DNA of 64,000 nucleotides from the NCBI GenBank assembly GCA_963921795.1, contig OY997641.1, positions 21,891,033-21,955,032 of the forward strand, given 5' to 3'. The position numbers and the translations under genes were made by a program. Source of the DNA: Nannobrachium achirus (Eukaryota > Chordata > Actinopteri > Myctophiformes > Myctophidae). Shown one piece after another: positions 50,081 to 52,227 of this stretch (positions are counted from its first letter, which is position 1; every line of letters begins with the position of its first letter). A model generated the notes under the pieces. It saw only the letters and a program-made list of their open reading frames with translations, did no database searches and was not told the origin of the DNA.

Positions 50081-52227
50081 ATGGCTGGTCAGAAGCTTAC
50101 CTTCTTGGAAACTCTGCAGGAGCTGAAAAAAGAAGAGGTAGACTTGTTCATGTGGCATCTGCAACAGCCTGACAACTTCGTAGGCAACTTGAGGCCATTA
50201 GCAGCTTCCGACTTGGAGGAAGCTAATACTAGGCACAAAATTGTCAATCTGATTACGGGGAAATACACTACTCGTGCTCAGGAGATCGTGATCAATGTTT
50301 TGAAGAGGATCAACAGGAATGATCTAGCGCAGACATTGGCAAAGATACCCCTAGGTAAGTGAAGAGAGGATATAATTATGTTTGCAGGTTATCGGGCCAC
50401 ACTGGTAGTCCTACAATAATTCATACACTAGAAAAATACACCCCCCTCCCTTTCACACAGCATAGGCCTACCTGCACGCTCGCGCACGCACACACACACA
50501 CACACACACACACACACGTCACACGCACGCACGCACACGCACGCACGCACACACACACACACACACACACACACACACACACACACACACACACACACGC
50601 ACACACACACACACACACACACACACACACACACACACACACACACACACACACACATACACACACACATTCACCTTATAACAATGGTTTGTTTATTGGG
50701 CATTTGAGCCACGGACCCAACCTGGGTTCCAGCCTGTTTGCTCCGTTCCGCGATTTGTTTTGTCTCAACATTTTGTTATCGTTGAATAAAGATTTTGTCC
50801 ACAATTCCATGCTGTATTGATGTTGGTACAAATAGGAGAGAAGTTTAGCACATGACTTCTGATAGTGATTATTCTTTTTCTCGCAAAAGCCTCAGGTGTG
50901 GAGAGAGCTCAGAGTACCCAGGCAACGGGTAAGGCCTTTACTTATATCTGACCTTTACTGTATACTTGACCCTGAAATCAAACCAAGAACTAGGCCTACA
51001 GAATAATGAAATGGACAATGATCAAATTAATGTTTGATGTTCTTATTTTTCTCAGTCAGCTGTGACATTAAACTTTAACAAGTGCAGTGCACGTTTACCA
51101 TAAGATTCTAAAACTTTCAGATTACCCTGAGAGTTTTCATTTGAGGCTGCTTGCCTTCTTCACATTATGAACAGGAGTTGTTGTTTCTGTAACAGTAGTC
51201 ACTTGTTTTTTCCCCTTCTCAAATGTCTCAGGTGTGGATGAACCTGGTCATACAGCAGGTAAGAAATTGACTTTTCTCTGACCTGTATATTTGACCCTGA
51301 AATCAAACAAGAAGAACTACCAATGAAATGGACAAAGAGAGCATTCATGTTTGCTGTCCTTTTGTTTTGGTAATTAGTTTCATTAAACTTTAACAAGTGC
51401 AGTGAACCTTTACATTTCAGGACAGAAATTAAGTAACATTTTGTGTTATACTTTATTCAATTATACAATTATTCATTGTATAATTGTACCTCTGTACAAT
51501 TTTGCAAACTCAATGTCATTCCCGCTGCTTGTCTTCACTTCATGAAAACAGGGGTATCATCTGGGGCAATTGCCACCCCCTAGTGTTCACATTTAACCTC
51601 AAATGCAGTTATTATTTGCATAGGCTATTGTCCCCAACTCTGAATTGTTTTAGAAGATTAATCTGATTTCATTGCAATCGATGGCAATCCATCTACACGT
51701 GACACGTGTTATAATTTACATAAGCCTCTTATTGTATGCAACCATTCATTTATTACCACTTTCAACGTGGCATCCATATTTGGGAATGTCATTGTAGGCT
51801 AACATTTTCTCTTTTCGCCCCCAAACAAATAGCAATAATTGTTGATCTACAACACAGAATAATGAAATAGACAATGAGCAAATTAATGTTTACATGATAT
51901 TACACTTTGTGCATCTTTAATTTATCTTAGGAAATAAATCATATAATAGTCTGACCTTTTTTGACAGACATGAAAGCTGACTTTGTGAAGAGCAAAATGG
52001 ATGACCTAATTCAACGTGTCAAAAATGTTATGCCTATAATAGATGAACTCCGTAGGAAAAAGATTCTCTCAGATGAGCAGTATAGTGAGATCAAGGACGC
52101 AAGGCCGAGTCAGGCTCAAATGAGAAAGCTTGATGATGCACTTACCACAAAAAAAGCAAAGGAGGCATTCTACGATGCTCTGGAAAAGAAGGAGCCGAAT
52201 CTTCATGAAGAACTGAGGGATTCTTAG
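50081..52227 (+). CDS. Gene 2, isoform B: ASC-like PYD-CARD adaptor by alternative terminal exon
   Basis: Exons 50081-50354, 50890-50928 and 51232-51258 can splice, phase 1 to phase 1, to 51968-52227. This gives a 199-residue protein with PYD at 1-91, a linker of about 22 residues, and CARD at 114-199. Human ASC/PYCARD has 195 residues with PYD to about 91 and CARD from about 113, so the layout is nearly the same. In ASC the PYD joins NLR/AIM2 filaments and the CARD recruits caspase-1; a similar bridging role is inferred here. The CARD exon has a good acceptor (CCTTTTTTGACAG), ends in TAG at 52225, and is followed by AATAAA at 52805. Use of this exon and of the caspase exons must be mutually exclusive. 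It could instead be the main or only product of an ASC-like gene fused to the locus. RNA evidence is not available here. Confidence 0.72.

Follow-up and report, generated by a model that had tools for sequence, protein, structure and literature searches.

Results and Discussion

A CARD exon inside a PYD-caspase gene

Can a single gene supply both a PYD-bearing protease and a PYD-CARD protein of ASC-like layout by ending its transcript at either of two exons? This question is raised by gene 2 of the window (the whole 64,000-nucleotide stretch of DNA analysed here, which belongs to contig C4 of a 1.66-Gb genome). The rebuilt exons and related features of gene 2 are, in window coordinates:

50081..50354, + strand: PYD exon 1, with an ATG start, a Pfam PYRIN match and the donor TAG/GTAAGT; common to both products
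50896..50928, + strand: linker mini-exon L2 (33 nt, GVERAQSTQAT, phase 1-1), with AG/GT borders
51232..51258, + strand: linker mini-exon L3 (27 nt, GVDEPGHTA, phase 1-1), the last exon common to both products
51340..53692, + strand: CARD-holding block of ~2.35 kb, missing from gene 1 in a blastn comparison of genes 1 and 2
51968..52227, + strand: CARD exon, an alternative terminal exon with acceptor TTTTTTGACAG, a Pfam CARD match and a TAG at 52225-52227
52228..52830, + strand: putative 3' UTR of the PYD-CARD form, with AATAAA at 52805-52810
54481..54524, + strand: micro exon DGPLLSKTQKEAKVP, the first exon exclusive to the protease form, with homologues in genes 1, 3 and 4
55035..55146, + strand: caspase exon
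55342..55888, + strand: caspase exon containing the catalytic MSHG and QACQG
57143..57317, + strand: last caspase exon, with the small subunit and the stop

The exon order is PYD, two linker mini-exons, a CARD with its own stop and the caspase exons, with GT/AG at all junctions. The preliminary description had noted, in the intron between the PYD/linker and caspase exons, a CARD exon that has a stop codon and an AATAAA of its own and an acceptor and phase that fit the upstream donor, and both points were borne out. The exon at 51232-51258 ends in phase 1, which is accepted alike by the CARD exon and by the exon at 54481, and an Asp codon is formed at the junction by either route (51258/51968 or 51258/54481). 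The AATAAA at 52805 lies 578 nt 3' of the CARD stop. Gene 2 can therefore be read in frame as a 197-aa PYD-CARD protein or, with the CARD exon skipped, as a 403-aa PYD-caspase. Of the product predicted earlier (199 residues, CARD from 114), the order PYD, linker, CARD stands; its size is corrected to 197 residues and the start of its CARD to about 112-116.

The domain assignments were well above the Pfam cut-offs. The CARD exon by itself scored 51.1 bits (cut-off 23.9), which upheld its earlier identification as a CARD. In the predicted spliced reading of 197 aa, PYRIN scored 43.8 bits (cut-off 22.9) over residues 9-84 and CARD covered residues 116-196. The 403-aa reading gave 41.8 bits for PYRIN and 177 bits for Peptidase_C14, also above cut-off. 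The donor common to both routes scored 11.3 on an approximate matrix, and the pyrimidine content was 0.65 before the CARD against 0.82 before the competing micro exon, i.e. the CARD has the weaker tract. No GTAAG or GTGAG donor was found near the 3' end of the gene 2 CARD exon, and the CARD was accordingly rejected as an internal exon of the protease; ending in a stop and lacking a donor, it would not be spliced to the protease in one protein. A long CA repeat lies in intron 1 of gene 2 (window ~50485-50680), as one does in the same intron of genes 1, 3 and 4. Rfam gave no matches within the window.

Four paralogues, two of them with a CARD

Besides gene 2, the paralogues are:

Window 4994..12436, + strand: gene 1, a tandem paralogue with a PYD, two linkers, the micro exon and caspase exons
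C4:21001463-21012137 (L039-L041): gene 3, with a PYD, L2, L3, an extra linker L4 (18 nt), a CARD at 21010182 that ends in a stop codon of its own and, beyond it, caspase exons
C4:20205301-20216300, near 20.215 Mb (L051, L052): gene 4, with a PYD, L2 and the micro exon

The CARD search returned one close relative, that of gene 3, which is 61% identical and lies ~930 kb away on the same chromosome. It also scored well over the Pfam cut-off, its stop is followed by AATAAA or ATTAAA, and the PYD-CARD reading of gene 3, including the extra linker exon, is 208 aa long. The caspase exons follow ~7 kb further on, behind a second linker set that sits between them and the CARD. Since these second linkers are closer to gene 1, gene 3 seems to combine the front part of a CARD-bearing copy with a rear part resembling gene 1. 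The earlier proposal that a PYD protease and a PYD-CARD protein with an identical PYD could come from one locus is thus upheld at the level of predicted readings, as mutually exclusive terminal exons in a design that is kept in a paralogue.

No CARD was found in gene 1, the intron of which matches that of gene 2 on both sides of the CARD-holding block. Gene 4 likewise gave no CARD, and no caspase exon within the 7.6 kb read downstream; it has perhaps been broken by insertions. A 197-aa open frame at C4:20215064 was considered as an intronless copy of a PYD-CARD mRNA, which would have attested splicing indirectly, and rejected, as it is a PYD exon read into its intron. CARDs at 22.86 Mb of contig C3 had no PYD or caspase match to the gene 2 queries (E 0.01, within 40 kb). 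Duplicated elements and 37-bp repeats with ATATATGGGCATAAAAGGGAT occupy window positions 7061-10700 and 36685-37246, the first lying in an intron of gene 1.

The PYD tree has the form ((gene 1, gene 3), (gene 2, gene 4)), with supports of 95/90 and 85/57, and the PYD of gene 2 groups with those of the caspase paralogues (97/99). Among the four paralogues only genes 2 and 3 have the CARD, one in each half of this tree, and the exon most simply predates all four genes and was lost twice. On these sequences the CARD exon is therefore probably old; gene conversion is a possible alternative.

The CARD resembles a dispersed class of internal cassettes

The genome search with the gene 2 CARD listed 150 matches, many of them weak, of which 30 were given as loci: genes 2 and 3 and 28 others. 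As an observation on the genome as a whole, these listed CARD matches stand beside 151 PYRIN matches among the scored candidates, an expansion like that of the round goby. A tree was built from 39 CARDs, namely those of genes 2 and 3 and the 28 loci, five from PYD/CARD loci in the same genome, and four from the PDB (~84 columns, with some long branches). Genes 2 and 3 fell with 20 of the 28 loci on one side of a branch supported at 97/92; the other eight lay across that branch, where the ASC chains also fell, as did the five CARDs of L053 (two), L054, L055 and L056. In each of these five pairs, PYRIN and CARD matches lie 1-5 kb apart on one strand. By these domain matches, this genome has separate, predicted ASC-like PYD/CARD loci.

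The tree neighbour of the class that includes genes 2 and 3 is the zebrafish GBP-type CARD, on a long branch flagged as unsure by the program. The single best PDB match of the CARD exon was 5gpq, an ASC CARD (41 bits), followed by the GBP-type 4irl (39 bits), which is the nearest solved CARD to the class and came first in the fold search. The predicted fold of the CARD alone had a mean pLDDT of 77 (single sequence), and its best Foldseek matches were CARDs, at E >0.1, which supports the assignment weakly. An origin of this CARD from ASC is not supported, given the 97/92 branch between genes 2 and 3 and ASC, a result of modest weight since 5gpq is marginally the best PDB match. The term 'ASC-like' hence holds for the layout of the product, in order and size, and not for its descent.

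The 20 loci that group with genes 2 and 3 are:

L011-L022, L024, L028, L032-L034, L036-L038 (match at ~1501 in each): class I CARD loci, a name coined here, dispersed over many chromosomes

A G/GTAAG donor directly follows the CARD in 20/20 class I loci, in 0/8 of the other loci and in neither gene 2 nor gene 3. Class I CARDs therefore look like internal cassettes, with phase 1 on both sides. In two class I loci, with 12.5 and 15.5 kb of context, reading the open frames by eye recognised no other domain. Genes 2 and 3 fit class I by clade, by the upstream linker exon and by the acceptor TTTGACAG/ACATGAAA, which is present in many, not all, class I loci. Homologues of L2 occur as mini-exons in genes 1, 3 and 4 and also beside other CARD cassettes; a linker mini-exon precedes the CARD in L014, L021, L032, L033 and L037, and where the introns were compared they were homologous to the linker introns of gene 2.

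The missing donor

With the class I GTAAG donor missing, the CARD of genes 2 and 3 became terminal; judged by sequence, it looks like a former internal cassette of another CARD class that has lost its donor. The sequence beyond the gene 3 stop, CCAACAACTTCA, matches the intron that follows the donor in L022, which indicates that the donor changed where it stood and that the reading frame then continued to a stop. The post-stop stretch of gene 2 is homologous to that of gene 3, and at its start a tRNA-type SINE can be read by eye. The altered donor sequences of the two genes are unlike each other and do not distinguish one loss from two. The donor may have been lost twice, a history that would argue for selection in favour of the adaptor form.

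A further reading, which we put forward tentatively, is that donor loss split a gene encoding PYD, CARD and caspase in one chain, leaving a locus that switches between the PYD protease and a PYD-CARD adaptor of its own, the layout of ASC having arisen afresh without ASC. Before the loss, one frame would have run through PYD, linker, CARD and caspase, and the loss would have divided these domains between two products. No undivided PYD-CARD-caspase reading was seen among the present-day loci read here.

Is the CARD frame kept?

We estimated dN/dS (NG86, with bootstrap intervals) for the CARD of gene 2 against gene 3, for six PYD pairs and for three caspase pairs. The CARD value of 1.11 (0.65-2.16) is indistinguishable from neutrality, and the PYD pairs (0.80-1.89) and caspase pairs (0.83-0.99) gave intervals that all include 1. 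Because the PYD and caspase exons are also near 1, the ratio cannot tell the CARD from those domains and is uninformative as an indicator of purifying selection. In genes 2 and 3 the acceptor lies in a stretch of 37 identical bases, which was not taken as proof, as the intron contains one of comparable length.

A CARD dN/dS near 1 is what would be expected if the exon were a relic or a poison exon, which truncates the transcript and has survived by chance or because it dampens protease expression, any PYD-CARD product being incidental. The missing donors of both CARD exons and the lack of a CARD in two of the four paralogues (genes 1 and 4) agree with this explanation, as does the divergence of the CARD between genes 2 and 3, which at 20.6% exceeds that of the flanking introns (13.2% pooled, ~18% in the two nearest upstream stretches). 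The two diverged copies have nevertheless both retained an open frame and an intact acceptor. Without the last 12 nt, where the genes differ, no frame-shifting indel was seen in 252 nt of CARD against 3.4 expected from the flanking introns (P ~0.03), and neither copy contains a stop, for which the chance after 59 random substitutions is ~0.16-0.19. The joint P of ~0.006 is rough and assumes independence. In addition, a hexamer resembling a poly(A) signal lies downstream in both genes, and both CARDs score far over the cut-off. We regard a relic or poison exon as a serious but rather unlikely alternative; the comparison of the two copies favours a CARD frame that has been kept, a conclusion that is unproven.

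The protease is caspase-8-like

Genes 1 and 2 retain both catalytic motifs, MSHG and QACQG, intact, and gene 3 has the same motifs; QACQG is presumably the caspase-8/10 form of the motif. Among the 207 PDB sequences that matched the protease, the best 60 were headed by caspase-8, followed by caspase-3 and caspase-7, and caspase-1 was absent from these 60. By this comparison the protease of gene 2 is classed as caspase-8-like, not caspase-1-like, and gene 2 is hence not a caspy/caspase-1 gene. A natural guess is that the locus descended from a CARD-caspase, similar to casp20, that gained a PYD.

A proposed switch between protease and adaptor

We consider it an evenly balanced proposition that gene 2 is a gene for a PYD-bearing caspase-8-like protease that keeps the CARD as an alternative last exon, with the PYD-CARD product serving as a private adaptor. 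Skipping of the CARD would yield the 403-aa PYD protease, and its use, with cleavage near the AATAAA at 52805, would yield the 197-aa PYD-CARD protein with the identical PYD. The PYD of the latter could join filaments of the protease while its CARD answered a CARD sensor. Zebrafish inflammatory caspases are recruited via the PYD of ASC (PMC10328535). The inflammasome action of zebrafish Gbp4 reportedly needs ASC. Gbp4 has a C-terminal CARD and acts through an inflammasome (PMC4932187). A bridge of this type would be open to a PYD-CARD protein whose CARD is GBP-like.

Proteins with only a CARD or only a PYD act as inhibitors, and the PYD-CARD product might similarly hold the protease back as a decoy, either by capping PYD filaments or by occupying CARD sensors. 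It would share its exact PYD with the protease, and human ASC has splice forms of opposite effect, ASC-c being inhibitory (PMC2887861). Both domains of the predicted product are complete, however, and better suited to bridge than to cap. We think a decoy improbable, with the proviso that the present data do not separate activator from inhibitor. Less probable still is a separate CARD-only transcript starting within the intron: an ATG does lie two bases past the acceptor in genes 2 and 3 and in many class I copies, but the acceptor matches the phase of the upstream linker exons, and several further class I loci have homologous linker exons ahead of the CARD, which makes the unit look like linker plus CARD. 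Repeats and recent duplications abound in the region, yet a foreign CARD exon placed in the intron by an assembly error is scarcely credible: elsewhere on the chromosome, gene 3 shows the same exon order, with ~20% CARD divergence and homologous flanks on both sides.

If both forms of gene 2 are made, one gene would, through its selection of terminal exon, govern the amounts of protease and adaptor and their ratio. Inflammasome parts are thought to evolve by the swapping of death-fold exons, but intermediates seldom come to light. Gene 2 unites PYD, CARD and caspase exons, two diverged copies with the CARD were found beside two without it, and the DNA itself shows the separating step, the missing donor.

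Comparison with known systems

ASC forms specks and bridges PYD sensors to caspases. The predicted spliced product of gene 2 shares with ASC/PYCARD a PYD followed by a CARD in one short protein, with the PYD at ~1-91, a linker, and the CARD from ~112 to the very end, in a total of 197 aa, compared with 195 aa in full-length human ASC (2kn6). It differs in that ASC has its own gene, whereas the PYD and linkers of gene 2 also lead in frame to caspase exons, and in its relationships, the CARD being outside the ASC group and the PYD grouping with caspase paralogues. The zebrafish GBP-NLRP1-like CARD (4irl) is close to class I as its nearest solved CARD, tree neighbour and top fold-search match, a likeness of one domain on a long branch flagged as unsure. 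We found no gene switching between a PYD caspase and a PYD-CARD adaptor in the open-licence literature, a scope outside which most subscription journals fall.

Fish CARD-Casp8 (casp20, and also casp22 in zebrafish) is a caspase-8-like protease with an N-terminal CARD (PMC5965869, PMC2779465, PMC1903365). Gene 2 resembles it in having a caspase-8-like catalytic domain and a CARD within the gene, a likeness drawn from PDB matches, QACQG and published descriptions. In contrast to CARD-Casp8, gene 2 has a PYD exon first, and its CARD exon has no donor with which to reach the protease.

An N-terminal PYD on a caspase is shared with zebrafish caspy, caspy2 and casp19 and with caspase-15. The known PYD caspases have caspase-1-like or caspase-14-like protease domains, those of zebrafish being caspase-1-like (PMC5965869, PMC2779465). 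Gene 2 differs from the caspy type by its caspase-8-like domain with QACQG, a class assigned from PDB matches, and by the extra CARD exon. A PYD-bearing caspase-8-like protease was not found in the open-licence literature, and gene 2 adds this combination to those known.

The closest precedent for alternation of the two domains is the expansion of caspase-1 in the round goby, where some copies carry a CARD and some a PYD (PMC6988351). PYD and CARD thus alternate on related fish caspases in both cases; in the goby they are on separate caspase-1 genes, while gene 2 holds both exons in one caspase-8-like gene. The arrangement of gene 2 therefore bears on the suggestion, made in the goby report, of a former caspase with both a PYD and a CARD.
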